From NCBI GenBank assembly GCA_021373135.1, contig JAJFTH010000006.1, positions 248,001 through 312,000 of the forward strand: a DNA stretch of 64,000 bases, given 5' to 3'. Positions 1,733 through 63,512 of this stretch are shown in pieces. A program made the translations under genes and the position numbers. This DNA is from Bacteroidales bacterium. GTDB taxonomy: Bacteria > Bacteroidota > Bacteroidia > Bacteroidales > UBA1402. The notes under the pieces are model-generated. The model saw only the letters and a list, made by a program, of their open reading frames with translations, had not been told where the DNA came from and did no database searches. How positions within the stretch are numbered: the first letter of the stretch is position 1; every line of letters starts with the position of its first letter.

Positions 1733-1840
1733 CTGATATTCATTTTTTCGTCTAAGGTCCTATGGAACTCGCATGTCCATTTTATCATAAGCTTGGACGT
1801 TTTTACAAACATGCTCGTTTCATAGGATGAAATTTGAACA

Positions 1841-1871
1841 CAAACCTACATAATATTGTCGGTTTTGCCAA
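1841..1871 (-). promoter_or_regulatory. Promoter of the DUF4369 lipoprotein gene
   Basis: Minus-strand TTG (1869-1871), 20-bp spacer, TAGGTTTG (1841-1848): a full match to the Bacteroidetes consensus, about 110 bp upstream of the lipoprotein start. Confidence 0.6.
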
Positions 1872-2031
1872 AAGGATGCACCTGTTTTAATGCTATCTTC
1901 AAATACAAGAGGCTGATTTTATCCAAATTTTTCATTTTTTGTGTCAATTTGTTTGCTGGCAATCATTCAGTTAAAAAACCTACAAATTCATTCTGTCAAG
2001 TAAAAAGTGCAAATTAATGCATTTATTTTTC

Positions 2032-2039
2032 TAACTTTG
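2032..2039 (+). promoter_or_regulatory. Probable -7 element of pnp
   Basis: TAACTTTG matches TAnnTTTG, about 50 bp before the pnp ATG. I found no TTG at the expected distance, so only the -7 half is supported. Confidence 0.4.
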
Positions 2040-2089
2040 CGCGATTTTATAAGAAGAAAAAAAAGACAATTTAAAAAAAGACGTTTTTT

Positions 2090-4300
2090 ATGATTAACCC
2101 GATTGTCAAAACAATTGAACTTGGTGATGGAAGAATCGTTACCATTGAAACCGGGAAATTAGCAAAACAGACTGACGGATCCGTGATGGTCCGTATGGGC
2201 GACACGATGTTGCTCGCTACTGTTTGTGCTGATGTAGATGCCACTCCCGGTACTGATTTTATGCCTTTGCAGGTAGAGTACAAAGAAAAATTCGCCGCAG
2301 CCGGCCGTTTCCCTGGTGGTTTCACCAAACGCGAAGGTCGTGCAGGAGACTCCGAAATTTTGGTATCCCGCATGGTGGATCGCGTATTGCGTCCGCTTTT
2401 TCCGGAGAACTATCATGCGAATGTAATCGTTAATGTAATCCTTTTCTCTGCCGATGGCAAAGATATGCCGGATGCACTTGCAGGTTTGGCTGCTTCTGCC
2501 GCTATCGCTGTTTCAGATATACCTTTCAACGGACCCATCTCTGAAGTTCGCGTTGCCCGCATCGACGGACAGTACAAGATCAACCCTACTTTTCAGGAAC
2601 TCGAAAAAGCGGATCTGGACTTGATGGTCGGTGCCACTTATGAGAATATCATGATGGTAGAAGGTGAAATGAAGGAATTGCAGGAATCGGATGTGCTTGA
2701 AGCTTTAAAATTAGCTCATGAAGCCATCAAGGTTCAATGCAAGGCTCAAATGGAACTGACCGAAATGGTTGGCAAGACTGAAAAACGTACTTATTGCCAT
2801 GAAGTCAATGACGAAGATCTGAGAAAAGATGTTTGGGCTAAGACTTACGATAAAGCATACGTTGAAGCAACGTCCTGCAATCCCGACAAACATGCACGTT
2901 CGGAAAATTTCGAAGCCATTATCAAAGAATATGTTGCCAATATGACTCCCGAAGTTGCTGCTGAAAAAGCAGACATGGCTGTCCGCTACTATCACGATGT
3001 TGAAAAAGAAGCCATGCGTCGTTCCATCCTTGATGAAGGGAAACGTCTTGATGGTCGTAAGACAACCGAAATCCGGCCTATCTGGTGTGAAGTTGATTAC
3101 TTGCCCGGTTGCCACGGCTCTGCCATCTTTACACGTGGTGAAACACAGTCACTGACTTCTGTCACATTGGGTACCAAGATGGATGAAAAAATGGTGGATG
3201 ATGTACAAGATCAAAGCAAGCAAAGATTTTTGCTTCATTATAATTTCCCTCCTTTCTGTACCGGTGAAGCCCGCGCAAGCCGTGGTATCGGTCGCCGTGA
3301 AATCGGTCACGGTAATTTGGCCCATCGTGCATTGAAAAATATGTTGCCGCTGGATTACCCTTATGTGGTACGTGTCGTTTCCGATATTCTTGAATCAAAC
3401 GGTTCTTCTTCCATGGCAACGGTTTGCGCCGGAACTTTGGCTTTGATGGATGCCGGTGTGCCCATCAAGAAACCGGTTTCAGGTATTGCAATGGGATTGA
3501 TAGCCGACCCCAAGGGCGGAAAATATGCTGTCCTTTCAGATATTCTGGGTGATGAAGATCATCTGGGCGATATGGATTTCAAGGTAACAGGTACCAAAGA
3601 CGGTATCACTGCAACCCAGATGGATATCAAGTGTGACGGACTTAGCTACGAGATTTTGGAACAAGCGTTGATGCAGGCTCACGAAGGACGTATGCATATT
3701 CTGGGCAAGATAACCGAAACGATTGCTGTCCCGCGTCCTGATTTGAAACCGAATGCTCCGCGTATTGAAATGCTTTGGATTCCCAAAGAATTTATCGGTG
3801 CTGTCATTGGTCCGGGTGGAAAAATCATTCAGGGTATTCAGGAAGAAACGGGTGCTATCGTTACCATTGAAGAACTCGACGGAAAAGGTCGAGTAGAAGT
3901 CTCTGCAAACAATAAGGCTGTTATCGATGCTGCCATGTTCAAGATCAAAGGCATTGTTGCCATTCCTGAACCAGGAGAGACCTATCATGGAAAGATCCGT
4001 TCCATCATGCCTTATGGTGCATTCGTAGAGTTCATGCCCGGCAAAGATGGTTTGCTGCACATTTCCGAATTTGACTGGAAACGACTGGAAACAGTAGAAG
4101 AAGCCGGGTTCAAGGAAGGTGATGAAATTGACGTAAAATTGCTTGATATCGATCCTAAGACCGGTAAATACAAACTTTCACGCAAAGTGCTGTTGCCCAA
4201 GCCTGAAGGTTATGTTGAACATCCTGCCCGTGAACGCAGCGAACGTCCGAACCGTGATCACGGTGATCGTCCTGCACGCCCAAGTCGCAAGGAAGAATAA
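2090..4300 (+). CDS. pnp: Polyribonucleotide nucleotidyltransferase (PNPase)
   Basis: PNPase degrades RNA phosphorolytically 3' to 5', releasing nucleoside diphosphates, and is central to cytoplasmic mRNA turnover. The 736-residue product has the full layout: first RNase PH domain ([22 protein letters not shown]), alpha-helical linker, second RNase PH domain ([23 protein letters not shown], interrupted here only by quotation; catalytic DxxD region [13 protein letters not shown]), KH domain from about residue 560 ([10 protein letters not shown], intact GxxG loop) and S1 domain from about 630 ([19 protein letters not shown]). A charged Arg-rich tail ends the protein. Length is normal for the family. 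It stands alone, followed directly by a nested hairpin region. Identification is certain. Confidence 0.97.
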
Positions 4301-4306
4301 TGCTGA

Positions 4307-4435
4307 CCCTAAAAGTTAGACGGATTTATAAATGAATGATTGAAGGACTGAGCTCTAAACGATATAGGACTCAGTCCTTTTAAATTGTCTTTAATACATC
4401 AAATACATTCCGAAAGTTGTGCCTGACTTTTAGGG
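4307..4435. repeat. Inverted-repeat pair with IS150-like tips enclosing a terminator
   Basis: CCCTAAAAGTTAG (4307-4319) and CTGACTTTTAGGG (4423-4435) are inverted repeats matching at 12 of 13 positions and about 100 bp apart. The tip TGACCCTAAAAGTTAGAC resembles terminal repeats of IS150-group IS3 elements. No transposase lies between; the interior holds the pnp terminator hairpin. Either a small non-autonomous element relic or an unusually large nested terminator, since T7 follows the outer arm at 4439. Confidence 0.5.
4343..4382 (+). terminator. Rho-independent terminator of pnp
   Basis: AAGGACTGAG (4343-4352) pairs with CTCAGTCCTT (4370-4379), followed by a short T-run. It lies about 40 bp past the pnp stop. 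Confidence 0.75.
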
Positions 4436-4511
4436 CCGTTTTTTTACATTGACCTGATCAACTTCTTCAGATTGTTGAGAGGCATATAGGGGCGATGTCA
4501 TTAAAAATCAC

Positions 4512-4519
4512 TAACTTTG
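4512..4519 (+). promoter_or_regulatory. Probable -7 element of the ABC-F gene
   Basis: TAACTTTG matches TAnnTTTG, about 80 bp upstream of the ABC-F start. No TTG at the proper spacing was found. Confidence 0.35.
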
Positions 4520-4589
4520 CCCGCTCTTTGAGAAAAGGGAGTTTCGGTTTTTCGACTTTGTGAAAGGTCGGTTTATTTCTAATAATTAA

Positions 4590-6212
<1,623 letters not shown>

Positions 6213-6230
6213 GAGATGGTTTTGGGAAGA

Positions 6231-6512
6231 TTAAAGTTCCCGGGTTTCCTCCAGACTTTCATCTTCCCAAGAGTCATCATCTTCGGTTACAGAATTGATG
6301 AGTTCCATCAGCTCTTCGGCCTTTTCTTTGTCTTTTTCAAATATGTGTAAACGAACCCCATATTCTGAAAGGTTGTTACCTACAAATGGATTGTTTTCAT
6401 TACTCAGAAAGCAAGGAATGTTGTTGGATTCAAGCGCACCTTTTACAATGGAAGCTTCTCCTTGTGTCGGAAAATCCATGAATACAATGGTCTTGTCTTT
6501 ATTTTCATTCAT
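6231..6512 (-). CDS. DUF2007-like putative signal-transducing protein
   Basis: A small acidic cytosolic protein of 93 residues beginning MNENKDKTIVFMDFPTQGEA. The segment FMDFPTQGEASIVKGALES followed by NIPCFLSNENNPFVGNN is the DUF2007 pattern, a ferredoxin-like fold of unknown role, annotated in databases as putative signal transducing protein. The C-terminus is strongly acidic (TEDDDSWEDESLEETREL). The reading frame is open further upstream, but the ATG at 6510-6512 is chosen because the family begins there and a good promoter lies just ahead of it. The gene lies between the ABC-F gene (convergent) and the helicase gene (same strand, separate promoter). Confidence 0.75.
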   Translation of the reverse strand: MNENKDKTIVFMDFPTQGEASIVKGALESNNIPCFLSNENNPFVGNNLSEYGVRLHIFEKDKEKAEELMELINSVTEDDDSWEDESLEETREL

Positions 6513-6530
6513 AGCTGTTGAATTTTTTCT

Positions 6531-6562
6531 CAAATATAACTGAAAAATCATTCTGATAACAA
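6531..6562 (-). promoter_or_regulatory. Promoter of the DUF2007 gene
   Basis: Minus strand TTG (6560-6562), 21-bp spacer, TATATTTG (6531-6538), about 20 bp upstream of the start codon. It supports the internal ATG at 6512. Confidence 0.6.
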
Positions 6563-6603
6563 CAATGATGTCAATTTTGTTTTTGGGTAGTCGTTGGTGT
6601 GGA

Positions 6604-7818
6604 TTATTTCCTTTTGCTGAAATTTCTGCTTCCTCCTTTGTGAGTCGCTCTTGAATGATGTTTCGAGGGATCATAATCAGGACCATCTCCCACTTCTTTG
6701 GGAAGAGGAATCCTGTAAATGGTTTTTCCCAAGAACTTTTCAATACGTTCAAATAAATCCTGTTCGTCTTCAGAGACAAAAGTGATGGCCAAACCGTCTG
6801 CACTTGCACGGGCTGTCCTTCCGATACGGTGGACATAATCTTCTGCATCGTGTGGAACATCATAGTTAATGATGACACTGATATCTTCAATGTCGATTCC
6901 CCTTGAAACGATGTCGGTGGCAATCAGAATGTTGACCTTCCCATTCTTGAAATCATACATGGTGCTGTCACGTTGTGACTGATCAAGATCAGAGTGCATT
7001 TCCGCAACGGACAGTTTCATGGAGCGCAAAGTGCGGGTCACTTCTTTAACCTTGATTTTGGAAGAGGCAAAGATGAGGACTTTGTCAGGTATGGATTCTT
7101 CAAAAAGTTGTTTGACGATATATGCTTTCTGTCTTTCATAACAGATATAGGCCGATTGTATGATCTTGTCGTTGGGTTTGGATACGGCCAGACGGATTTC
7201 TTCCGGTTTATTTAGGATACTTTTTGCCAATTCGCGGATTTTTGCCGGCATTGTGGCAGAAAACATCATGGTCTGACGACGCTTGGGAAGTTCGTTCACC
7301 ACCTGCATGATGTCGTCAAAAAAGCCCATGTCAAGCATGCGGTCGGCTTCGTCAAGAATAAAATATTGTACTTGTGAAAGATCGATCAGCCCCAGTTTCA
7401 GGTAGGAAAGCAGCCGTCCCGGGGTGGCTATCACAACATCTACACCAGCCTGAAGACCTTTTTTCTGTTGTTCCCAGACGATTCCGTCACTACCTCCGTA
7501 AACGGCAACAGATGAAATGGGCAAGTAATATGCAAAACCTTCAACCTGTTGGTCTATCTGTTGGGCCAATTCTCTGGTCGGAACCATGATGACCGCATTG
7601 ATGGCCTCTTCCGGATGATTTTCTTTTACCAGATTATTAAGGATGGGGAGTAAATAGGCCGCGGTTTTCCCTGTGCCGGTTTGTGCACAGGCTATAATGT
7701 CTTTACCTTCAAGTAAAAGCGGGATTGCTTGTTCCTGCACGGGAGTACAATCCCTGAAATTCATAGCCCAAAGGCCGTCTAATACCTCTTCTTCTAAATC
7801 TAATTGGTCAAATGTCAT
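6604..7818 (-). CDS. DEAD-box ATP-dependent RNA helicase, RhlE-like
   Basis: A 404-residue two-domain RecA-like helicase that unwinds short RNA duplexes, used in ribosome assembly and mRNA turnover. Motifs in order: Q-motif (CTPVQEQAIP), motif I AQTGTGKT, Ia PTRELAQQ, II LDEADRM, III SATMP, then IV-VI in domain 2 with ATDIVSRGID and HRIGRTAR. A basic tail ends the protein (ATHKGGSRNFSKRK). An upstream in-frame codon would add 16 residues, but MTFDQLDLEEEVLD matches the usual family start, so 7818 is preferred. No Shine-Dalgarno and no clear promoter were seen in the 330 bp upstream. Confidence 0.93.
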   Translation of the reverse strand: MTFDQLDLEEEVLDGLWAMNFRDCTPVQEQAIPLLLEGKDIIACAQTGTGKTAAYLLPILNNLVKENHPEEAINAVIMVPTRELAQQIDQQVEGFAYYLPISSVAVYGGSDGIVWEQQKKGLQAGVDVVIATPGRLLSYLKLGLIDLSQVQYFILDEADRMLDMGFFDDIMQVVNELPKRRQTMMFSATMPAKIRELAKSILNKPEEIRLAVSKPNDKIIQSAYICYERQKAYIVKQLFEESIPDKVLIFASSKIKVKEVTRTLRSMKLSVAEMHSDLDQSQRDSTMYDFKNGKVNILIATDIVSRGIDIEDISVIINYDVPHDAEDYVHRIGRTARASADGLAITFVSEDEQDLFERIEKFLGKTIYRIPLPKEVGDGPDYDPSKHHSRATHKGGSRNFSKRK

Positions 7819-8152
7819 AAGTGTTGCATCAGCATGATCAACCGAACTGGTTGATAATAAATGCAAAGAAACGAAAAAAAGACGGGATTAAGGTCATATA
7901 CGCCCCTGCTTTTTATACATTGGACATTTATATGAGTATACGTCTACCAATGTAGTTGCTTTTTAAACAACGAAAGAGCAATTTGAATAATAAACATTTT
8001 ATTCTTCTTGTTGTTATACTTTTTAATATTAGAAACAGGAAATATTCTTAATTTAATTGTTTTTGCAAGGATATCTTACACACGCATTGCTTTATACTGA
8101 AAACACAGGCAGTCCTGAAGGGATACCTAAATGTTAAAATAGAAATAATGAG
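7819..8152. other. AT-rich intergenic region, divergent
   Basis: About 330 bp between the helicase and the SGNH esterase gene. It is very AT-rich like the esterase gene that follows. I found no RNA gene, no convincing ORF and no full TTG-N20-TAnnTTTG promoter on either strand. Confidence 0.45.
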
Positions 8153-9832
8153 ATGAAAATCAAGTTGATTGTTTTACTGGCATTTTGTAGCTTTTGTGTA
8201 TTTGGGCAAAATGAACTTAAAAGTATTTTATATCAAAAACCAGGTTCAACAGATTATTGTCAAATAATTATGTACGGACAATCTTTGTCTATTGGATATG
8301 AGACAATCTTTGCAATAACTTCTGATCCTTTACCAGATTGTTATATGCTTGGTAGTTCTGTCCATCCGATAAGCACATTATCAAATGAAAACACTCTAAA
8401 TTTTTTGATAAATTCGGGATCAGAAGATCCAACTGTATCCTTAACCAACGCATTTTCCTATTTGTTTAAACAGAAGAATCCAAATGTGAAATTTATCGGA
8501 ACCTCATGTGGTAAAGCAGGATATACGGTTGCTGAATTATCAAGGAGTGACAGATATCCTGATGTCTCAGGCTCTCACCCTTTTGAATATGGATTTAAAT
8601 CATCAATGCAACGGATTAAAGAATTATGTGATATGGAAGGTAAAACTGTTTCCTGTTCTGCTATCATTTGGATGCAAGGAGAAGCGGATTATTATGGGGA
8701 TTCTTTATCTGCTAAAAGACCCTGTAGTGGTGATAAATATTTATATAAAAAAAGACTGTTACAACTTAAGAATGATATGCAGGATTGTTGTAAAGAAATA
8801 TATGGTCAGGAAAATGTTCCTTTATTTTTTATGTCAAACATTGGTGGCTCGTATATCTCTAATAGATATTTAACAATCAATATGGCTCAAAAAGAATTGG
8901 CGGAAGAGAATTTGGATATGATTCTAATGAATCCTCATTATGCAGTTCCTCATTACGCTGGGGCACATTTATCGGAAAATGGTTACCGAATGTATGGCGA
9001 AATGATGGCCAAACATTTATGGAAAGTATTTGGTGAAGAAGAGTATTACAAGCCAGTTTATCCAGAAAGATTTTCGGTTGAAAAAAATATAATGACCATA
9101 GACTTTTATTCTCCATCAAAATCTTTAACTTTTGATACTTTGACATTATCTAAAATCAACAATTATGGTTTTCAAGTTTGGATGAATGACAATATCCAAG
9201 AAATATTAAATGTCCAGATAAAAGATACATCAGTGATTCTAACAACAAAAAATGACCTTTTGGGTACTATAGATATATCTTATGCAGGATATAATGCTAC
9301 TTATAAAGAAAAAGGGTTTGGAAATTTAAGGGATGAAGATCATTGGGAATCCTATTATACTTATTGGGATGATACATATGATGCTGGTGGTATAATGGGA
9401 TCTTATTGGAAAGAAGATGTTAATCCTGAGGATACTACTTCCTATCAACAATATAGATCAGATTCTACCTACAAAGAAGGATCAAAAGTTTGGACCTATA
9501 AACCTTACTTCGGAAAGAAACATTATTGTACTTGCATGATAGACGCTCCTTCTTCATCGCCTTTTAAACCTATATATTGGAGACCTAAAGATGAATATGG
9601 TCATATTATTATTGGGAAAAAGTACCCACTATTTAACTGGTGCATTAATTTTTATCAGAAACTGGAAATTATACCAAATACAATTTATAGTACAGAAAAA
9701 GACAAAAGCGTTATAGGAGAAGCTTTTTATAACATAAGCGGAATAAAGGTAATCAAACCAACAAAAGGTTTCTTTATCAAAGTAATCCATTACTCAGATT
9801 GTTCTTTCGAAACTCAGAAAGTTGTGTTTTGA
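8153..9832 (+). CDS. Secreted SGNH/SASA-type carbohydrate esterase-like protein
   Basis: A 559-residue protein with a type I signal peptide (MKIKLIVLLAFCSFCVFGQ). Residues about 35-295 match the sialate O-acetylesterase-like SGNH fold: block I MYGQSLS (nucleophile Ser in GQS), an oxyanion block around GTSCGKAGYTV, block III IIWMQGEADY (WxQGExD) and a final His in AHLSENGYRMYGEMM. The C-terminal 260 residues look like a beta-rich accessory region rich in Tyr and Asp that I do not recognise. Likely role: removing acyl groups from glycans outside the cytoplasm (inference). The gene is markedly richer in A and T than its neighbours and stands alone beside tRNA-Arg, which suggests recent acquisition. 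Confidence 0.75.
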   Translation: MKIKLIVLLAFCSFCVFGQNELKSILYQKPGSTDYCQIIMYGQSLSIGYETIFAITSDPLPDCYMLGSSVHPISTLSNENTLNFLINSGSEDPTVSLTNAFSYLFKQKNPNVKFIGTSCGKAGYTVAELSRSDRYPDVSGSHPFEYGFKSSMQRIKELCDMEGKTVSCSAIIWMQGEADYYGDSLSAKRPCSGDKYLYKKRLLQLKNDMQDCCKEIYGQENVPLFFMSNIGGSYISNRYLTINMAQKELAEENLDMILMNPHYAVPHYAGAHLSENGYRMYGEMMAKHLWKVFGEEEYYKPVYPERFSVEKNIMTIDFYSPSKSLTFDTLTLSKINNYGFQVWMNDNIQEILNVQIKDTSVILTTKNDLLGTIDISYAGYNATYKEKGFGNLRDEDHWESYYTYWDDTYDAGGIMGSYWKEDVNPEDTTSYQQYRSDSTYKEGSKVWTYKPYFGKKHYCTCMIDAPSSSPFKPIYWRPKDEYGHIIIGKKYPLFNWCINFYQKLEIIPNTIYSTEKDKSVIGEAFYNISGIKVIKPTKGFFIKVIHYSDCSFETQKVVF

Positions 9833-51531: not shown

Positions 51532-53520
51532 TCAATAATCCAGTTTGTATTCCACAAATGCCTCTATTGCTTCATAGGAAGCCAAACCAAGGTTGTTATA
51601 GAGTGTTGCGGTCGTTTGGTTGCGGTCTTCAGCTCTCTGCCAGAAGAGTCGTTCATCGTTTCCAAGGAATGGTGCACTTTCCATCTGTGATTGGTGCTTG
51701 AGAATGGTGTTGCGTTTACTGCGCAACTGCTCAGGACTCATGGGCACAGCCATCTCAATACGGTCAATTTCCCATTCTGCCCAAGCTCCGCGATACATCC
51801 AAATACGGCATTTTTTCATCCATGGCTCATTCTTCAGTTCGTGAATACCAGCCAGGGCTGCATCCAGACAAACCTTATGCGTACCATGAGGGTCTGCAAG
51901 GTCGCCGGCAACAAAGATTTGGTCTGGTTTGACAGATTTTAATAAATCAATGACAATCTTGACGTCGGCTTCTGTCAGTTTTCCTTTTTTTATAGTTCCG
52001 GTTTCGTAAAACGGAAGCCCCAGAAAATGAACATTTTCAGGTTTTACACCCATGAAACGGTCGGCAGACCTGGCTTCCTCTTGCCTTAGTCTTGCCTTGA
52101 AGAAAAGAACATCAGCAGTATCAACATCCCCAGGTTGTTTAACTTCCTTTAGGAAGTGAAGCATTTCGGCGTATTTCTGTTTTAAAAACTTATTGTTTCC
52201 ATCGTATTTGTTCAAAATATGTTGCATCAGAGAGATAGAACGAATCACCTCTTCATCTCCGACGGCAATATTGCCGGAAGTTTCATAGGCTACATGAACA
52301 TCATGATGTTGATCGACCAGACGCTGGAAGGTGCCTCCCATGGAAATTACGTCATCATCCGGATGCGGGCTGAATATCAACACACGTTTTGGATATGGCT
52401 TTGCCCGTTCAGGACGATCCGTATCGTCTGTATCCGGCTTTCCACCAGGCCAGCCGGTGATGGTGTGTTGCAGGTCATTGAATATCTTGATGTTTACATT
52501 GTATGCTGATCCATAGAGTGCCAGCAGTTCATCCAGACTATGTTGGTTGTAATCTTTGTTGGTGAGCTTCAGGATGGGCTTTCCGGTTTCTGCGCACAAC
52601 CAGACGATGGCTCTGCGTATCAACATGTCTGTCCACTCACAATGACCAACCATCCAGGGATGGCTGAGACGGGTGAGTTGTTGGGCTGCATCCAGGTCAA
52701 TGAATGCAACGGCATTTTTGTGAAGTTGGAGGAAGGATGCTGGTGCTTTGTCATTCATCTGACCTTCAATTACCTCTTTCAGGATGGCTGATTTTTGTTC
52801 GCCCCAAGCTACCAGAACGACCTGTTTGGCATTCAGGATGGTGCCGATTCCTATAGTGATGGCACTGTTCGGTACTTCCGATGATGAGCTGTAATATTTA
52901 TTCAAATCATTTTGGGATACCTCGTCGAGCAACATCAATCTGGTAAAGGTACTGGTTTGAGAACCTGGTTCGTTGTAGGCGATGTTTCCAACCAGACCCA
53001 CACTGGCTAAAACCAGATCCAAGCCACCGTGTTGCTCAATCAACTCTTCATAATGGTGACAGAAATCGGGCAAATTGGAACGATTTACCGTTGAGTCAGG
53101 GGTAAAGAAATTTTCAGGCTTGATGTTTACTTTGTCCAGCAAATGATGATGCAGTAATTTCGTGTTTGAGTGTCTTTCATCATCAATGATCGGGAAAAAT
53201 TCCGAAACATTGAATACGACGACATTTTCAAAACTCAATCCTTCTTCAAGATGCATCTTCGCCAGATTTTCATAGACACCCAAAGTTGAAAATCCACCTG
53301 ACAATCCTAAGACACATTGTTCTCCTTTTTCTGCTTTTCCCCGGATGAGGGTTGCAATGTTTTTGGCGATGTAATGTGCTCCAACTTCCGAATCTTTGAA
53401 AATATTCGTCCGAAGTCTCTCGAAACGAGTCTGACGCAGATTCTCTATCATGTCTGTCGGTTTGTAATAACGCTCTGGTATGCGTTCTAATGTAATTTTG
53501 GAACTTAAGTCTAATTCCAT
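51532..53520 (-). CDS. NagB-like domain fused to LmbE/PIG-L deacetylase domain
   Basis: A 662-residue cytosolic fusion. Residues about 35-300 are a NagB/6-phosphogluconolactonase fold, but the deaminase residues are changed: the DEY motif is SEF (Ser107), and DGH in the second motif is VGN (Val177, Asn179); only Glu184 in NEPG remains. Residues about 380-662 are an LmbE/PIG-L N-deacetylase with SPHPDDDVISMGGT and DPHGTH, the zinc ligands intact. So the second half is probably an active sugar deacetylase and the first a sugar-phosphate-binding or regulatory domain. Such fusions are widespread in Bacteroidales. ATG at 53520 (MELDLSSKITLERIPERYY) is preferred over an upstream frame extension. 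It follows nagB by 134 bp. Confidence 0.88.
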   Translation of the reverse strand: MELDLSSKITLERIPERYYKPTDMIENLRQTRFERLRTNIFKDSEVGAHYIAKNIATLIRGKAEKGEQCVLGLSGGFSTLGVYENLAKMHLEEGLSFENVVVFNVSEFFPIIDDERHSNTKLLHHHLLDKVNIKPENFFTPDSTVNRSNLPDFCHHYEELIEQHGGLDLVLASVGLVGNIAYNEPGSQTSTFTRLMLLDEVSQNDLNKYYSSSSEVPNSAITIGIGTILNAKQVVLVAWGEQKSAILKEVIEGQMNDKAPASFLQLHKNAVAFIDLDAAQQLTRLSHPWMVGHCEWTDMLIRRAIVWLCAETGKPILKLTNKDYNQHSLDELLALYGSAYNVNIKIFNDLQHTITGWPGGKPDTDDTDRPERAKPYPKRVLIFSPHPDDDVISMGGTFQRLVDQHHDVHVAYETSGNIAVGDEEVIRSISLMQHILNKYDGNNKFLKQKYAEMLHFLKEVKQPGDVDTADVLFFKARLRQEEARSADRFMGVKPENVHFLGLPFYETGTIKKGKLTEADVKIVIDLLKSVKPDQIFVAGDLADPHGTHKVCLDAALAGIHELKNEPWMKKCRIWMYRGAWAEWEIDRIEMAVPMSPEQLRSKRNTILKHQSQMESAPFLGNDERLFWQRAEDRNQTTATLYNNLGLASYEAIEAFVEYKLDY

Positions 53521-53654
53521 TTTCTTATATATTTTAAATGAATATTTAAAAGTTTGGAAGCGTCGTTTCCTCCGCTCCTGCAAATTGGCTGATTCTACAA
53601 AAACCATTGAAAGGAGTGCTTCATCCAATCATGATTTCTTGTTCTATTCAATAG

Positions 53655-54440
53655 TTACAACTTCTCGATATCTTTAAAATATCGATAAGTACCTACTTTT
53701 AGTTCATCCGTAGCTGCTTCGTCGCAAACAATAATACCTTTTGGATGCATCTGTAAGGCGCTGATGGTCCACATGTGATTGACGGATCCTTCAATGGCAT
53801 GATACAAGGCACGTGCCTTGGAGTGGCCGTTCACCATAATGAGCACTTCTTTTGAATCCATCACTGTGCCTACACCGACGGTGAGCGCATGTTTTGGTAC
53901 CAGGTTGACGTCGTTGTTGAAAAAGCGTGAATTGGCAATAATGGTATCTTCTGTCAACGTTTTGATACGTGTGCGTGATTGAAGGGAAGAGCCTGGTTCG
54001 TTGAAGGCAATATGACCGTCAGGGCCGATACCGCCCAAAAATAGTTGAATGCCGCCCAATGATTTGATTTTGTCCTCATAAGCTTGACATTCTGCTTTCA
54101 GATCCGGAGCATTGCCGTTCAGGATATTTACATTCTCAGGCAAGATGTCAATGTGGCTGAATAAATTGTCCCACATAAAAGTGTAGTAGCTTTGAGGATG
54201 TTTTTGGGGTATTCCTACATATTCATCCATATTGAAAGTGATGACATGCTTGAAGGAAACCAATCCTTGATTGTACAACTCAATGAGCTTCTTATAGGCT
54301 CCAAGTGGACTTGATCCTGTAGGCAAGCCAAGCAAGAATGGGTGTTCGGCATTTGGAGCAAAGTTCCTGATTTTTGTAGCAACATAATTGGCCACCCATG
54401 TAGAAATTCCTGTAGTGTCAGGTTGAATGATTAAGCGCAT
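53655..54440 (-). CDS. nagB: Glucosamine-6-phosphate deaminase
   Basis: Converts glucosamine 6-phosphate to fructose 6-phosphate plus ammonia, feeding amino sugars into glycolysis. The 261-residue product keeps every catalytic residue at E. coli numbering: Asp72 in NMDEYVG, Asp141 and His143 in [10 protein letters not shown], Glu148 in NEPG. N-terminal [15 protein letters not shown] is the phosphate loop. It precedes the degenerate NagB-like/LmbE gene and has a strong promoter of its own, so the two may be one unit for amino-sugar use. Confidence 0.96.
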
Positions 54441-55753: not shown

Positions 55754-56060
55754 CTCATTATTTTTTTATTTTAATATATAAGTATTCGATGTAACTTGCC
55801 AAATAATTGTTCGTTTATTCTAAACAGTCGTTTTGCGTGACTCAGCATAACCAAAAACAAATTTTGTTTCTGCTTTCGCTACTTAAAACGTTCACTTGTG
55901 TGAGCGATAGATCAGGGGTTCGTTTCATAGGCTTTTTTTGCGAAAAAATCGTTTCCAAAGTAAGTGAATATTTTTTGTGGTGGCAAATCATTGGATAAAA
56001 CGTTTTTGCTCAAATTGAAATCAGATTGTATCTTTGTGAAGAACCGAATGATTTAATAAG
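55754..56060. other. Divergent intergenic region before the PqqD cluster
   Basis: 307 bp between the lactonase start and pqqD-like start. The right end carries the strong pqqD promoter. A TTG-initiated 63-codon frame (55807-55998) is present but its product (Phe/Cys-rich, no leader character) is unconvincing as a precursor peptide. Confidence 0.45.
56006..56036 (+). promoter_or_regulatory. Promoter of the PqqD-HprK-ABC operon
   Basis: TTG (56006-56008), 20-bp spacer, TATCTTTG (56029-56036), 24 bp upstream of the pqqD-like ATG. Full consensus match. Confidence 0.65.
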
Positions 56061-56336
56061 ATGGAAATACGAGACTTGAATAAACTCAAATCCCAATTTG
56101 TAACCAGACAAGTTGGAAACGAACTGGTATTGGTGCCTCTGTCAAATAATGTTTCAAACATGAAAGAACTCTTTACCATGAATGAAACAGGCCGCTTCAT
56201 CTGGGAAAACCTGACTGAGAAAATGACCGTGGATAAACTTGCTGAAAAATTGATGCAGGAATTTGAAGTTGATGAAGAAACGGCCATAAAAGACATCAAA
56301 CTTTTTCTGGAAAAGGTTTCACAAATGAAAAATTAG
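56061..56336 (+). CDS. PqqD-family peptide-binding protein (RRE domain)
   Basis: A 91-residue protein of the PqqD fold, the small winged-helix module that binds leader peptides in RiPP pathways. Family features: FTMNETGRFIWENLTEKMTV (the MNxTGxxIW pattern after an N-terminal beta hairpin VTRQVGNELVLVPL) and the helical end LMQEFEVDEETAIKDIKLFL. Its stop overlaps the next gene's possible GTG start by one base and precedes its ATG by 5 bp. First gene of a three-gene operon with an HprK-related kinase and a peptidase-ABC exporter. In this context it should present a peptide to the other proteins. Confidence 0.85.
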   Translation: MEIRDLNKLKSQFVTRQVGNELVLVPLSNNVSNMKELFTMNETGRFIWENLTEKMTVDKLAEKLMQEFEVDEETAIKDIKLFLEKVSQMKN

Positions 56337-56341
56337 TGTTC

Positions 56342-57193
56342 ATGAACTTGAAAATTGCAGACTTCACAATCAAACTTTTTTCTGAAAAGCCGTTTCAACT
56401 GGAAGAAGGTTATCTGCCCTTTGTGGATGGGGATGAAGCCTGTGCGCCGGATGTTTCGGTCGAATGTGTTTCAGGTATTCCGGACAGTCTGTTGGATGGC
56501 TGCAAATCTTTGTTTGAAGCCAGGAGCGAAGACCAATGGTTCTATTCCGTCTATGAATACCATGCCGGACTGGCATTCCGGATTTTCAATCAACAAACCA
56601 AAAACAGTGTTCAACAAATTGCCGTTTTAAACAAGGCTTTGAATGAATGGAAAATATTTACTGTACCTGGACCGGAAAATGATTTGTTACCTCTTAAATA
56701 TCCGATGGGGCCTATCCTCCTGTATTATCTGACTGTCAATCATGAAGCCATCATGATTCATGCTTCCGGTGTTTTTGACGGTGAAAAGGGAAGATTGTTC
56801 ACCGGCTTTTCCGGCTTTGGAAAAACGACCATCTCGAACCTTTGGAAGGAAAGCGGCAGCAAACTTATCAATGACGACAGATTGATCATACGGAAGCGTG
56901 GCAATAGATTCTTCATGTTCAATACCCCCATGTATTATCCTGCTTTACCGGAAGAAGCACCCTTGGACACGATACATCTGATCAGACATGCTCCGGAAAA
57001 TACAACCAAAAAAATATCGGGAGCCCTGGCAGTTTCAAAAGTTTTAGCTTTTTGTATTCAAAATAATTTCGACAAACGGTTCATTGAAAATCATCTGGAT
57101 TTTGTCAATAAATTGTGTTCCGTCACCAGCGTTTACGAAACAGGATTTTTACCCGATGCAGGCATTGTTCAATATATGAAGGATCATGAGTGA
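56342..57193 (+). CDS. HprK-related kinase of RiPP-type cluster
   Basis: A 283-residue protein resembling the catalytic domain of HPr kinase. Key elements: His in MIHASGVFDG, P-loop TGFSGFGKTTISNL (about residues 155-168), and LINDDRLIIRK with the acidic pair. Related kinases in lasso-peptide clusters phosphorylate a Ser of the precursor or take part in its maturation; whether this one phosphorylates a peptide is inference. The N-terminal 130 residues look like the variable domain of this group. GTG at 56336 is an alternative start two residues upstream. The stop overlaps the ABC gene start by 8 bp, so coupling is tight. Confidence 0.8.
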   Translation: MNLKIADFTIKLFSEKPFQLEEGYLPFVDGDEACAPDVSVECVSGIPDSLLDGCKSLFEARSEDQWFYSVYEYHAGLAFRIFNQQTKNSVQQIAVLNKALNEWKIFTVPGPENDLLPLKYPMGPILLYYLTVNHEAIMIHASGVFDGEKGRLFTGFSGFGKTTISNLWKESGSKLINDDRLIIRKRGNRFFMFNTPMYYPALPEEAPLDTIHLIRHAPENTTKKISGALAVSKVLAFCIQNNFDKRFIENHLDFVNKLCSVTSVYETGFLPDAGIVQYMKDHE

Positions 57194-59423
57194 TAAAACG
57201 GAAAATCAGTTTAATGACGAAGGTGAACTTTATCATGATAAACAAGCCGTCATGTTGCGGATGCACGGAAATAGCATGTATCCGACCCTTCAGGAAGGAG
57301 ATATCGGCATTGTCGGTAAGTGCAGACCTGAAGACCTTGAAGTCGGCGACATCGTGGTGTTCAAGTCAAGGGGAAAAATCGTAGCTCACCGGCTGGTGAA
57401 GATTCAGGATCAGCCGTCGATGGTGGGATACATGACGCAAGGTGACAAAAACCTGCACCCGGATATTCCTTTTACTGCTGAGGTTATTGAAGGTAAAATC
57501 ACAACTTTCCAAAGGAAGAATGCCATTAAGACTGTCAATGACTGGAGTGTACGTCGGCTGGCCTTTATTGCGACCCATTTCAGACGATTGATTATTCCTT
57601 TTTATGATTTTGCCTTACGTGTCCGGTACTACAATAAAAAGCTAAAAGACAGCTTTTTGTCATTGAATAAAAATATGAAGATTGTTGGAAAGGGCACGCA
57701 AAGACAGTTTCTTAAAAATGCTTTCGTTGCCGTGATACAAGGTGTATTGCCTTTCCTGCTGATCATTTTCATGAAACTGCTCATTGATGCACTGACCAAT
57801 CCAACGATTCCAAATGTTTCTATATGGAACGATCAAATGTTTTTGTTGGCAATGACGGCACTTATGTTTTTACTCAATGCCCTAATCACGGTTATCAAGA
57901 GTTATTACATGGAGCGGTTGTCCTATTCTGTCAAGTGCCGTTCTTATGAGTTGCTTCAACAAAAGCATTCCGAATTGGATCTTTCCATGTACGAAGACGC
58001 CGGACAGCAGGATCAGATGCATCGGGCTGACCAGGAAGCGGGTTTCCGCCCCGTCAAAATCATGAGTGAGTTGCTGATGTTGATCAAATCACTGACCTCC
58101 CTTTTGGTGATGTTGGCATTGTTTGCTTCCATCCAATGGTATCTGGTACTTCTTTTGGTCATCGCCATCGTGCCTTGCGTTGTGGTTCAATGGCAGTATT
58201 CGGGGAAACGCTACCTGCTCAGTAAAAATCAAAGTCCTGTGGAACGTGAAATGGGCTATTACAACCGCATCCTTACAGGATTTCCTTTTGCCAAAGAACT
58301 CAGGCTTTTCGGATATTCAGGCATCTTTCATAATCGTTTTCTATCCATAGAAGAAAAACTTGAAAAAGATAAAAAGTCCCTGCAGCAATCGGAACTAAAG
58401 GCGAACGTGTTCGCCCAGTTATTTGCGGTCTTTCTGATTTTCGCTTCACTGGCCTATTTGGTTTATCTGAAGATGACAGGGGCGATTACCATCGGTAGTG
58501 TCGTCCTGTTTTTCTTTGTTTTTCAACGTGGTTTTTCTGTCTTCATGGATTTGTTCCAGTCCCTTGCAAAATTGGTGGAGGACAATACTTTTCTGAACGA
58601 TTTCATTGATTTTCTGAATAATCCGGTAAAGACCGGCGGTATCGGTGAAAAAAATCTTCCAAGTCCACTTAAAAAAGGCATTAAGGTGGAGAATCTCCGT
58701 TTCCGTTATGAGATGAGCAAACGCGATGCACTCACATCCGTCAGTCTGGACATTCCGGCAGGAAAAACCGTCGCCTTTGTCGGGGCCAACGGATCAGGAA
58801 AGACCACGATGATCAAATTGCTCTGTGGGTTCTACCTCCCTCTGGAAGGCAGCATCCGATACGATGATGTAGAGTTGAAGGACTTGAACAAAGAGGCACT
58901 AAGGGAACAGATAACTGCCGTTTTTCAGGATTTTGCCTTATATAATGTTTCTGCGAATGAAAACATTTGTTTGGGTGACGTGAAGAAACCTTTCAATCCT
59001 GATCAAGCGAAAAAGGCAGCCGAATTTGCCGGAATTGCAGAAGTTCTTGAAAGACTGCCTGACGGATATCAGACACTTCTTGGAAACTTGTTTAAGAATG
59101 GTGAGGAACTCAGTATCGGACAATGGCAAAAAGTGGCTATAGCCAGGGCTTTTTACCGCGATTCTCCAATCGTATTCATGGATGAACCGTCCAGTGCGCT
59201 TGATATCGATTCGGAAAAGCAATTGCTTGGAAGTTTGAAAAAACTTGGCGAGAACAAGACCGTTGTGATTGTAAGCCATCGGATGTCCACGGTACAATGG
59301 GCAGATATCATTTATTTTTTTGAAAATGGACGAATCCTTGAATCTGGTTCACATCAGGAACTGATGGACAAAGAAGGTGCTTATTTTTGCATGGTCCAGA
59401 GTACACGCGAAAAAGTTTTATAA
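57186..59423 (+). CDS. S26 (SipW-like) peptidase domain fused to ABC exporter
   Basis: A 745-residue fusion. Residues about 20-110 read as an S26 signal-peptidase-like domain: HGNSMYPTL with Ser30, EVGDIVVFKSRGKIVAHRLV with His68 where ER-type/SipW enzymes have the general base, and TQGDKNLHPD. Residues about 175-470 are a six-helix ABC exporter membrane domain; the ATPase has Walker A GANGSGKTT (about 532-540), signature LSIGQWQK, Walker B VFMDEPSSALD and H-loop VSHRMST. The plan parallels bacteriocin exporters with a C39 peptidase, but with an S26-type domain instead. It overlaps the kinase gene by 8 bp and meets the nucleotidyltransferase tail to tail. Role inferred: trimming and export of a modified peptide. 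Confidence 0.87.
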   Translation: MSDKTENQFNDEGELYHDKQAVMLRMHGNSMYPTLQEGDIGIVGKCRPEDLEVGDIVVFKSRGKIVAHRLVKIQDQPSMVGYMTQGDKNLHPDIPFTAEVIEGKITTFQRKNAIKTVNDWSVRRLAFIATHFRRLIIPFYDFALRVRYYNKKLKDSFLSLNKNMKIVGKGTQRQFLKNAFVAVIQGVLPFLLIIFMKLLIDALTNPTIPNVSIWNDQMFLLAMTALMFLLNALITVIKSYYMERLSYSVKCRSYELLQQKHSELDLSMYEDAGQQDQMHRADQEAGFRPVKIMSELLMLIKSLTSLLVMLALFASIQWYLVLLLVIAIVPCVVVQWQYSGKRYLLSKNQSPVEREMGYYNRILTGFPFAKELRLFGYSGIFHNRFLSIEEKLEKDKKSLQQSELKANVFAQLFAVFLIFASLAYLVYLKMTGAITIGSVVLFFFVFQRGFSVFMDLFQSLAKLVEDNTFLNDFIDFLNNPVKTGGIGEKNLPSPLKKGIKVENLRFRYEMSKRDALTSVSLDIPAGKTVAFVGANGSGKTTMIKLLCGFYLPLEGSIRYDDVELKDLNKEALREQITAVFQDFALYNVSANENICLGDVKKPFNPDQAKKAAEFAGIAEVLERLPDGYQTLLGNLFKNGEELSIGQWQKVAIARAFYRDSPIVFMDEPSSALDIDSEKQLLGSLKKLGENKTVVIVSHRMSTVQWADIIYFFENGRILESGSHQELMDKEGAYFCMVQSTREKVL

Positions 59424-60608
59424 TTTCCGAAAGAGGCCGAGAAAAGCTCTAACACCCCAACCAATGCCAACAAATATCCTGTAGGGATAGTATATCAGCA
59501 ATTGTGGCTTACTTTTCAAATGATATCGTTGCATCATGAATAATTTTGGAGGAAAAATCATTTGTTGCATATAAATGATTTTATCCTTCCAATCTTTTAT
59601 CCTTCCAATCTTTTTCACAATGGATAATGAATAAACATTTTGAGAGCCACCGGAAACCAGATATTTCAAAAGTAAATCCTCGTCAATTTTTTGAAGGGTT
59701 GGACCATATAAGCTAATCAGTTCATCGGATAACTTGGCACCAAAGTATTTGTTGCACAAAATTAAATATTTATAGGTATGGTCTATTGCCTTGAATCTTT
59801 TGCAAATATCGGAAAAAGCATCCCAGTCAAAATCTTCTGAATACTGGTTCAACAGGTTTGTGATATCGTATAGACAAGTGAATTGAATTTTACCTGCTTT
59901 GAAATGTTTGTCAAGATGCAGACACAAATGGAGCAGTAAATAGGTGTCGCTTAAAGTCATTGCCTGAACTCCGTGAATCATTACAGGAACAGCGTTTTTC
60001 CACAGTTCATTGATATCTGTTTCGTAATCCTCAAACTCATTGTGAATTCTCGTATGAATTTCAATGGATACTCCATTTTGTAACATTGGCGGAAAATGTG
60101 CAGCAGCAACAAAAACCTTCATGGATTCAGGTATTATGATTCCAGATTCGGATGGTTTATAACCCAGTTCTCTGAGTGTGTCCAACGCCTTTTCCCCATC
60201 TTCTTTCTTTACCAGCAAATCAATGTCGCTGAACTGTCTTAAACCGATTTCTTGATATAACCACTCTGAAAGATAAATGCCCTTCAATGCGATGACCTGG
60301 ATATTTTCAGTTTGAAATGCCAGTACAATTTTCTTGAAATGGTCTATCAATACCATACTTCGGCTTAAGGTTTTCAACCATGCTTGTTTTAGTTGAACTT
60401 TCACATTTTCAGGGATGTCCTTACTATTGGAAAGCATTGGCAGCTTTTTATATAGTATTGCACCCATTTGTCGTTTAATGGCAAGATTCGTGAAATAGTC
60501 CCAGTCCTTTATCTGCAAGATAAGCTGGTTCATCCGTTCCAGTTCCTCTGCTTGAGGTTTAATATTTGCGGCGGAAAGTATAAAGAGTTCTTCTGGTTTT
60601 AGTTGCAT
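59418..60608 (-). CDS. PF14907-type nucleotidyltransferase of RiPP-type cluster
   Basis: A 396-residue protein of the uncharacterised nucleotidyltransferase family often found next to lasso-peptide and HprK-related clusters. The nucleotidyltransferase core is IQVIALKGIYLSEWLYQEIG followed by LRQFSDIDLLVKKEDGEKAL (DxD metal site) and SIEIHTRIHNEFEDYE. The second half is helical. ATG at 60608 (MQLKPEELFILSAANIKP) is preferred to an in-frame codon 13 residues upstream. The gene converges on the ABC exporter gene with stop codons overlapping by 6 bp. Acceptor molecule unknown. Confidence 0.82.
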   Translation of the reverse strand: MQLKPEELFILSAANIKPQAEELERMNQLILQIKDWDYFTNLAIKRQMGAILYKKLPMLSNSKDIPENVKVQLKQAWLKTLSRSMVLIDHFKKIVLAFQTENIQVIALKGIYLSEWLYQEIGLRQFSDIDLLVKKEDGEKALDTLRELGYKPSESGIIIPESMKVFVAAAHFPPMLQNGVSIEIHTRIHNEFEDYETDINELWKNAVPVMIHGVQAMTLSDTYLLLHLCLHLDKHFKAGKIQFTCLYDITNLLNQYSEDFDWDAFSDICKRFKAIDHTYKYLILCNKYFGAKLSDELISLYGPTLQKIDEDLLLKYLVSGGSQNVYSLSIVKKIGRIKDWKDKIIYMQQMIFPPKLFMMQRYHLKSKPQLLIYYPYRIFVGIGWGVRAFLGLFRKL

Positions 60609-61017: not shown

Positions 61018-61833
61018 TTAAATCTTCATTGCTGAACGCATATTTCCATAAAATTTATTCAATGCCGAAAGATTGTCGTTGAGTTCAGTCATCTGTTTGT
61101 GGTATTGTTGGGATTCAGTTACGGATTCTGTCAAATTTTTCAGATAATCGTCTGCTTCTTTTTTCTGAAGTTTATATACCGTATTCAGGGCAGAGATGTT
61201 TTTATTAAGTGATTCCATTTGTTGATGATAAGATCTGGACTCTTCCTCAATAATTGCTAGTGAGTTAGCGATACTTTTATACTTGAATGCAGTTTTGCAT
61301 GTTACTTTTGATATCGTGGTTTCATATATTTTAGAAAGTTTCTCAAGCGATTCATCTGCTGTCTTTATTGTTTTCATATATTTTGTTGAGGCAGCAGAAA
61401 CATCACCCATCGAATTTATATTTGCGGTAGTTTCGCCAAGTTTCTTCATTCCGACACCAAGTTGCAGGAACAAATCAGGCGTGATTTCAGCGTTTTCAAG
61501 CATTTCATCAAATTTTGCAAGGGCTAAAGAACCTTCACCATCACCAATGACATCATGACTCTTTCTGTTATATAATGAACGTCCTTCAGCTTCATCTTCA
61601 GAATCCTCTACAATTACAGGATAGACCGGAATCGGGTCATCATCAGTTTCGAATGCATAAAAGAAGAAGATGATTGCTTCGGTAATAAGACCTGTAGAAA
61701 GCATAAAACCCGCTCCTGGCCAGTGCTGTATTTTAAAAAGTGCACCCAGAACAACAATGGAAGCACCATAAGAATATATTTTAGCCAATATACTTTTAAA
61801 GCCTTTGCTTTGGATTATTTCATTTAAGTTCAT
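61018..61833 (-). CDS. gldL: GldL, inner-membrane motor subunit of type IX secretion/gliding
   Basis: GldL and GldM form the proton-driven motor that powers gliding and type IX secretion. The 271-residue product has the two-helix N-terminus: SYGASIVVLGALFKIQHWPG with Lys34, then GFMLSTGLITEAIIFFFYAF with Glu52, equivalent to the conserved intramembrane Lys and Glu of Flavobacterium GldL. The rest is a cytoplasmic coiled-coil region (SYHQQMESLNKNISALNTVY and SQQYHKQMTELNDNLSALN form an internal repeat). It follows gldM, the reverse of the usual gldK-L-M-N order; gldK and gldN are not in the window. Confidence 0.9.
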   Translation of the reverse strand: MNLNEIIQSKGFKSILAKIYSYGASIVVLGALFKIQHWPGAGFMLSTGLITEAIIFFFYAFETDDDPIPVYPVIVEDSEDEAEGRSLYNRKSHDVIGDGEGSLALAKFDEMLENAEITPDLFLQLGVGMKKLGETTANINSMGDVSAASTKYMKTIKTADESLEKLSKIYETTISKVTCKTAFKYKSIANSLAIIEEESRSYHQQMESLNKNISALNTVYKLQKKEADDYLKNLTESVTESQQYHKQMTELNDNLSALNKFYGNMRSAMKI

Positions 61834-61907
61834 ATACTTGATTTTTTTAGGATTTTTTTAAGGGATTATCATAAATTCAGCCTAAGGGTTGAGTAAAAGT
61901 TTTTCAA

Positions 61908-63512
61908 TCAGTTAATGGTAATGAATAGTGGTGAAAGGATTCGTTTTGAGCCATCGGGATCACGAGCAACAATTTCTTCAAAAATAATACCCTGACCTCG
62001 GTTCGTATTTCTTATCTGTGTAATCATTTCATCTGTCAGCTTGTTGCTTTGGGATTCATAATGATAAACATTAAAGCCCCTTTGCATGGTCATCTTGAAT
62101 GAAATAATCTGAAAGGAGTAGTCAAATTCAAAATCATCCGGCATCTTGGCTATTATTTTCCCAGCTTCAATCAAGGTGTTCCTACTGACAAAACCTTCTT
62201 TTTTACTGGCAATATATGAATCCGGATCGGGGAGTTTTTTCACTCTGAAGTTTTCCGTTCCCATCTGTTTCATTCCCTTGTTTATTTTGACTGAAACCGA
62301 TATTGTTGTTTGTTTGCAACCCGCCGGGACTGTAACCAACCATCCGTTACCTTTATTTTTCCTCAACGTGCCGGTCGAAATAGTTGGGTAAATGTTTTCA
62401 CTGGGAATCCCAGAAACAGAGATGGACAACGGATTGCTCACTCCAATATAAAGCACATTCATGTTGGTAGCTGAAACAGTGAGTGATGGTTGAGCTACAA
62501 AGTATTCGTTTTTGAAATGGTATGTATTTTCTTTACCGGAATTGTCATATACACTCACAAATCCAGCATATTTCTGTAGCCCTGGTGTAGTAACTGGAAA
62601 TTTGAAATTTATCCGACCATTCTGGCTGGAGATAAGCGTTGCCTGATCCTTACGTGAAACCGACAGTGAATCTACCCCTCGCATCATGTAAACGTTGGGA
62701 CTCCGGCTGGTATCGTAAGCTGCAACAATCACCTCTGCTTCATATTGGTCGCCGGTAAACAAGTAATTGGTTTTTGGTAAAACCTTGGCTTCTATCCGGT
62801 CATACTTGAAATCGTCAGCACTGACTTCATGAAGCAGGCCATTGACCACTTCAAGTTCGGCATTATTTACCTCAGTGATAAATTTGTTCAGGATTGGAAT
62901 GTCAGCGGCCAATGGAATGTCATAAAAATAATGAAGTTCCCAACTTTGCTTTTTTCCCCAGGCATCGTAATATTTATCATCTGTTTCCAAACCGAGTGCT
63001 ATTTGATCCCGATATTTCGGATCTATCAGATTAAGCATTTTTTTACGGTATTCTATGATTTTTTTCTTTAACGCCCTGGCTTTTCCGTTTGATCCGTCCT
63101 CTGAACTTCCTATCAGGATTCGGGTTGGTTCCGTGTAATTATCCTTTTTTCTTAGCATCTTAAGAGGTATTCTTCGGGCAGAATCCAGAGGAATCTTTTC
63201 GGTTTTTGAGATTAATTCATCACGCAGGCTTTCAATATAGTTAACCATTTCAGCTGATATTTTCATAGCCTTTTTTGACTTCTCCAAAAAAGGCCCGACT
63301 TCATTCTTGTTCAGAGCGTATTCTTTCTCAAAGTTTGCATAGGCTCCCTTGCGTTTTTGCGCAAAATCGTCATTGGTCATCTGTACGTTGTCATTTACTA
63401 CGGTAAACCCGTCAAGTACTTCTTTTGAAACGTTCAAAGCCAACATCGCAGTCAGTACCAGGTACATCATGCCAATCATCTTTTGCCTTGGAGTTTCCTT
63501 ATGTGACGCCAT
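61908..63512 (-). CDS. gldM: GldM, periplasmic stalk of the type IX secretion motor
   Basis: GldM crosses the inner membrane once and reaches through the periplasm to the GldK/GldN ring. In 534 residues: short cytosolic end with PRQKMIGMMYLVLTAMLALN as the membrane helix (about 8-27), helical D1 domain (VGPFLEKSKKAMKISAEMVN), then beta domains (NYLFTGDQYEAEVIVAAYDT; YIGVSNPLSISVSGIPSENI). The family's conserved ALNVSKEVLDGF is present. It starts 12 bp after the upstream secreted-protein gene and is followed 74 bp later by gldL, an inverted order. Confidence 0.92.
   Translation of the reverse strand: MASHKETPRQKMIGMMYLVLTAMLALNVSKEVLDGFTVVNDNVQMTNDDFAQKRKGAYANFEKEYALNKNEVGPFLEKSKKAMKISAEMVNYIESLRDELISKTEKIPLDSARRIPLKMLRKKDNYTEPTRILIGSSEDGSNGKARALKKKIIEYRKKMLNLIDPKYRDQIALGLETDDKYYDAWGKKQSWELHYFYDIPLAADIPILNKFITEVNNAELEVVNGLLHEVSADDFKYDRIEAKVLPKTNYLFTGDQYEAEVIVAAYDTSRSPNVYMMRGVDSLSVSRKDQATLISSQNGRINFKFPVTTPGLQKYAGFVSVYDNSGKENTYHFKNEYFVAQPSLTVSATNMNVLYIGVSNPLSISVSGIPSENIYPTISTGTLRKNKGNGWLVTVPAGCKQTTISVSVKINKGMKQMGTENFRVKKLPDPDSYIASKKEGFVSRNTLIEAGKIIAKMPDDFEFDYSFQIISFKMTMQRGFNVYHYESQSNKLTDEMITQIRNTNRGQGIIFEEIVARDPDGSKRILSPLFITIN

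Follow-up and report, generated by a model that had tools for sequence, protein, structure and literature searches.

A probable Bacteroidota form of the linear polyphosphorylated peptide pathway, with dispersed precursor genes encoded beside T9SS cargo

We know of no role for the linear polyphosphorylated peptides (LPPs) or for phosphorylated lasso peptides. The LPP pathway was described in 2026 from Bacillota and was stated to be restricted to them (PMC13381572). Residues N33 and D70 of the RRE protein LppB hold the YxxP leader of the precursor, the SipW-like peptidase LppS cuts that leader only with the help of the RRE, and LppK phosphorylates one Ser of the core; the final product could not be identified in that study (PMC13381572). 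Here, we analyze an operon from a Bacteroidales genome which has much in common with the Paenibacillus lpp cluster (PMC13381572): a discrete RRE with a candidate Asn/Asp pair for YxxP binding, an HprK-like kinase, a SipW-like Ser/His/Asp peptidase, an MsbA-like exporter, an NTP transferase, and a linear precursor with a YxxPx[V/I] leader. The kind of cluster is therefore already known, and the description "undescribed-looking" given to it in the first-pass annotation does not stand. The differences are nonetheless considerable. The host belongs to the Bacteroidota, the peptidase is fused to the exporter, and the nucleotidyltransferase is often absent; precursors are dispersed and number up to 29, whereas one to three lie within the LPP cluster; and the genomic link is to cargo of the Type 9 secretion system (T9SS) rather than to capsule loci. 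With the phosphorylated lasso peptides paeninodin and pseudomycoidin (PMC9266682), the operon shares an RRE, an HprK-like kinase, an NTP_transf_5-type enzyme and an exporter, but it has no cyclase, B2 cysteine protease or lasso core.

The operon occupies 56061-59423 (+) of the window, by which we mean the whole 64-kb stretch of DNA that was analyzed, and consists of three tightly packed genes encoding a PqqD/RRE protein, an HprK-like kinase and a peptidase-ABC fusion (Table 1). It had been annotated as a promoter-led, overlapping three-gene operon facing a PF14907-type gene, and Pfam searches and pattern matching confirm both coordinates and domains; the promoter pattern has five matches in the window, both strands counted. 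Related genomes repeat the gene set, which is therefore not a product of chance. Linkage across homologous loci, proposed for four genes, holds for the three constant ones but not for the nucleotidyltransferase gene, whose 3′ end overlaps the ABC gene by 6 bp in the window. That gene adjoins about 6 of 18 related loci (L069, L070, L072, L076 and L077 by BLAST, L323 by eye) and is absent beside L062-L068, which makes the enzyme accessory here. With the gene at about one third of related loci, addition of a nucleotidyl or sugar group to the peptide is possible, but not general.

Table 1. Positions of the operon features (window coordinates) and of the two precursor copies in the same genome (contig coordinates)
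Feature	Position	Strand	Evidence
Bacteroidota-type promoter TTTG-N20-TATCTTTG	56005..56036	+	sequence pattern match
PqqD-family discrete RRE, LppB-like	56061..56336	+	PF05402, E 2e-15
HprK-like kinase, LppK-like	56342..57193	+	conserved active site; AF2 model and Foldseek
N-terminal signal-peptidase domain (S24/S26, SEC11/SipW type) of the fusion	57186..57575	+	PF00717
Peptidase-ABC exporter fusion (LppS and LppD in one protein)	57186..59423	+	PF00717, PF00664, PF00005
NTP_transf_5 nucleotidyltransferase, LppN-like, convergent with the operon	59418..60608	-	PF14907, E 9e-59
Peptide copy 1	contig C6 near 340537, ~28.5 kb past the right end of the window		
Peptide copy 2	contig C9 near 385539		

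Profile searches with the PqqD protein match TbiB1, TfuB1 and LppB (9x8z). Its AF2 model (pLDDT 82) has the RRE fold that structure prediction was expected to reveal, the best Foldseek/PDB matches being complexes of the lasso RRE TbiB1 with leader. Residues N41 and D78 are nearly invariant across 18 homologues and lie 37 residues apart, the same spacing as N33 and D70 of LppB, of which they are the equivalents. In one related genome (G041, locus L232 around 3233), a further PqqD-like gene stands alone, apart from the main locus, and is directly followed by a precursor gene.

By sequence, the kinase gives only weak matches to PEPCK and HprK_rel_B, but its AlphaFold (AF2) model (pLDDT 94.5) has HprK and PEPCK as top Foldseek matches. 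Counting from an alternative GTG start at 56336, His142, the P-loop GxSGxGK.T and Asp180/181 are invariant across 23 homologues. By alignment and model, the protein is thus an HprK-like kinase with an intact active site, as in the LPP pathway. Assignment to the HPr-rel-A system was considered separately and rejected (TIGR04352, HprK_rel_A, 14.7 bits against a cut-off of 200; HprK_rel_B, 32 against 200).

The third protein opens with a peptidase domain whose profile matches SEC11A/C (E 1e-11) and whose Ser30, His68 and Asp87 are invariant in 16 homologues. TM-like windows span residues 182-457, followed by Walker A at 533 and LSIGQ at 642; as no TM segment precedes residue 182, the peptidase domain is predicted to be cytoplasmic. 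The best NCBIfam match of the ABC half is MsbA (TIGR02203, E 2e-80), under the equivalog cut-off. The C39 PCATs, too, are ABC exporters with a cytoplasmic leader peptidase fused N-terminally; there, the peptidase is a C39 cysteine enzyme, whereas here it is a SEC11/SipW-like serine peptidase and a separate RRE would recognize the leader.

The first-pass annotation had found no obvious precursor, and suggested that a conserved short ORF be sought in the neighborhoods of related loci. Such an ORF, of 45-65 residues, is indeed found beside PqqD or HprK, and a profile built from the short ORFs of related loci (A1, then A2) was used to search genomes. Within the window the earlier statement is correct, since six-frame translation of the operon flanks yields no precursor, but genome-wide it is not: the profile picks up two copies elsewhere in the same genome, beyond the limits of the window (Table 1). 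The substrates were missed because the precursor genes are dispersed. Relatives carry 29 (L064), 21 (L063), 7 (L066), 4 (L062) and 2 (L068) copies. No precursor was found at the loci of the close relatives L064 and L068 themselves, a divergent one is present at the L066 locus, and a search of the G520 and G719 loci for divergent precursors returned none.

The peptides share the consensus YxxPx[IVL]..[IV].[LI]D..ISL.[LM].[ST].PP.[GD]P, or in short YxxP...[LI]D..IS...[ST].PP.GP, and the YxxPx[IVL] part is present in nearly all copies. The full LPP motif is YxxPxVLxHQxIxFETxxS (PMC13381572); its HQxIxFET part is replaced here by [LI]D..IS.[LM].[ST]. Neither Pfam nor NCBIfam has a model that matches the family. 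Differences between copies fall at the three codon positions as 11110, 7932 and 21011, about half of them at third positions, and where a residue is fixed its synonymous codons still vary freely, which together indicate that the ORF is a real coding sequence.

Two positions of the peptide invite comment. Position 16 is S, sometimes A or C. At position 21, every correctly registered sequence has S or T, and past this point no Ser of the core is fixed. We propose that the leader may be cleaved after position 16, which would place the Tyr at -16 as in LPP. The A and C variants fit the -1 site of a signal peptidase and so favor this position. We further propose the S/T at position 21 as a putative phosphorylation site, in that an invariant hydroxyl residue is what would be expected of a phosphate acceptor. 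LppK did not accept Thr (PMC13381572), which argues somewhat against this assignment. It is also possible that cleavage occurs after position 21, where LxS resembles the FET of LPP, though both the substitution pattern and the Tyr(-16) register make this alternative the less favored one.

Machine and peptide occur together. Among 393 Bacteroidales genomes, 28 have the kinase, 33 the peptide and 25 both (Fisher p 2e-29, with the kinship of the genomes ignored). Three genomes have the kinase and no detectable peptide, and eight have the peptide and no kinase; these mismatches are perhaps due to incomplete MAGs, genome completeness limiting what absences of either gene mean. In a phylum-wide sample, strong kinase matches outside the Bacteroidales occur only in G120 and G210, and a later peptide search of 193 genomes found peptides only in these two and in the window's own genome. 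Both G120 and G210 are held-out cases, having contributed neither to the peptide profile nor to the profile of the cargo domain described below.

The dispersed precursor genes have a characteristic neighbor. Of 68 proteins encoded upstream of peptide genes, 64 carry the TIGR04183 sorting domain (scored on the last 80 residues, E up to 0.01), compared with 20 of 124 other large neighborhood genes (p 6e-28, which ignores kinship, in counts dominated by two MAGs with 29 and 21 peptides). The gap between cargo and peptide genes is at most 160 bp in 57 of 60 cases. All 56 linked cargos tested share a domain of ~350 residues before the sorting domain, homologous to the pre-CTD part of Flavobacterium johnsoniae RemA/RemZ (8gl6 and 8gl8; E 7e-43 and 2e-38). 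In the window's genome there are exactly two proteins with this RemA-like domain, and a peptide gene lies behind each. In G120 and G210, six of seven peptides lie behind a T9SS-type cargo that matches the domain weakly.

Outside the linked set, none of 18 sorting-domain proteins has the RemA-like domain; a few of these (in L247, L256 and L261) stand before a maturation locus, so that the rule is not absolute. Fourteen proteins outside the linked set do have the domain, most of them from later-fetched loci and standing before a peptide; no peptide was found directly behind four domain proteins (one in L133, two in L075, one in L074). The domain occurs in 225 of the 393 Bacteroidales genomes; it therefore does not require the peptide, and the idea that it is unique to peptide-linked cargos is ruled out. 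The RemA-like domain (alignment A8; e.g., L119 8182-9246 and L120 8092-9156) has no Pfam or NCBIfam model. For the F. johnsoniae RemA/RemZ substrates, the parts of the published account consulted describe no peptide gene or maturation operon (PMC10994853), and among open-access papers we found none linking T9SS with such peptides.

We think it probable that this operon represents the LPP pathway in a Bacteroidota form and that it matures dispersed peptides, each encoded with a RemA/RemZ-like T9SS cargo, peptide and cargo acting jointly at the cell surface. PqqD would bind the YxxP motif of the small precursor, the HprK-like kinase would phosphorylate it, the SEC11/SipW-like domain would remove the leader in the cytoplasm, at or near the site proposed above, and the fused ABC half is predicted to export the product. 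One central machine would serve many substrates, the dispersed peptides of 45-65 residues. The LPP-type gene set thus suggests a RiPP-like pathway with a probably phosphorylated product, in agreement with the earlier suggestion that the peptide may be phosphorylated. Once exported, the peptide would most likely work at the surface with the cargo encoded directly upstream, to which it may be tied as partner, ligand or anchor, or only by co-regulation. More tentatively, each matured phosphopeptide could be tailored, as partner, ligand or anchor, to the T9SS surface protein of its own operon and act on the RemA-like or sorting domain of that protein, with a single machine serving all of them; this narrower version is plausible, though we would not yet favor it.

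It is also possible that machine and peptides belong together, but that the latter are secreted as natural products or signals of an ordinary kind, for which a position behind cargo provides co-regulation only. Strong linkage to one cargo type in two distant lineages speaks against this, as does the conservation of the core (PP.GP..., NDPFK), unlike the variable cores of bacteriocins. On the other hand, a peptide that has a cleavable leader and its own ABC exporter is usually a free product. In addition, many RemA-like cargos of other genomes lack a peptide, and some peptides are encoded at the maturation locus rather than behind a cargo. On balance, we regard this explanation as unlikely, though worth keeping in mind. 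A much less probable one is that the peptides have nothing to do with the PqqD operon and are accessory proteins of the T9SS, the co-occurrence reflecting shared lineage. Although T9SS cargo is their constant neighbor and eight genomes have them with no kinase detected, a peptide gene adjoins PqqD or HprK in many loci, the peptides carry YxxP and PqqD retains its two YxxP-binding residues, and outside the Bacteroidales, phylum-wide, kinase and peptide coincide only in G120 and G210. Least credible of all is a degenerate or split lasso-peptide locus with cyclase and B2 protease elsewhere, which the RRE fold and YxxP leader might suggest but which we reject, because neither an asparagine-synthetase-like cyclase nor a B2 protease was seen by eye near the locus or its relatives (in line with the non-cyclized, RiPP-like system first annotated), removal of the leader would fall to an intact SEC11-like peptidase, and the cores are proline-rich without a fixed acceptor ring residue.

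If the narrower version above is true, a whole RiPP pathway would be there to serve a protein secretion system. The main reading would extend the LPP kind to the Bacteroidota and tie a recently described phosphopeptide pathway to the display of proteins on the cell surface. RemA-like T9SS surface proteins emerge as a concrete candidate partner of the peptides, whose role thereby becomes directly testable. Cluster-based genome mining would miss a RiPP layout of this type, in which one machine is central and its many precursors are scattered, and the analysis adds one peptide family and one cargo domain that existing models do not cover.

Finally, we note several observations on related and neighboring genes. 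A distant second type of Bacteroidales cassette (loci L081 and L083-L088) has HprK, PqqD, separate S24, NTP_transf_5-like and ABC genes. Two of these cassettes, L087 and L088, adjoin polysaccharide-export genes, and short YxxP ORFs near some of them, such as MKKEYIAPLTEKTEVELEQGFMAAS, may be their precursors. At 51532-54440 (-) of the window, translations inspected by eye include two neighboring NagB-like genes, one of which encodes a 698-aa fusion with an LmbE-like deacetylase domain. A second GldL/GldM pair adjoins the operon, in a region covered by 61018-63512 (-) of the window and 1525-8256 of locus L241; its GldM is 31% identical to the GldM on contig C9. Behind this pair come genes for an 897-aa OM protein, for a chaperone-like protein and, repeatedly, for small secreted proteins (~185 aa), which suggests a surface-structure cluster with a T9SS-type motor.
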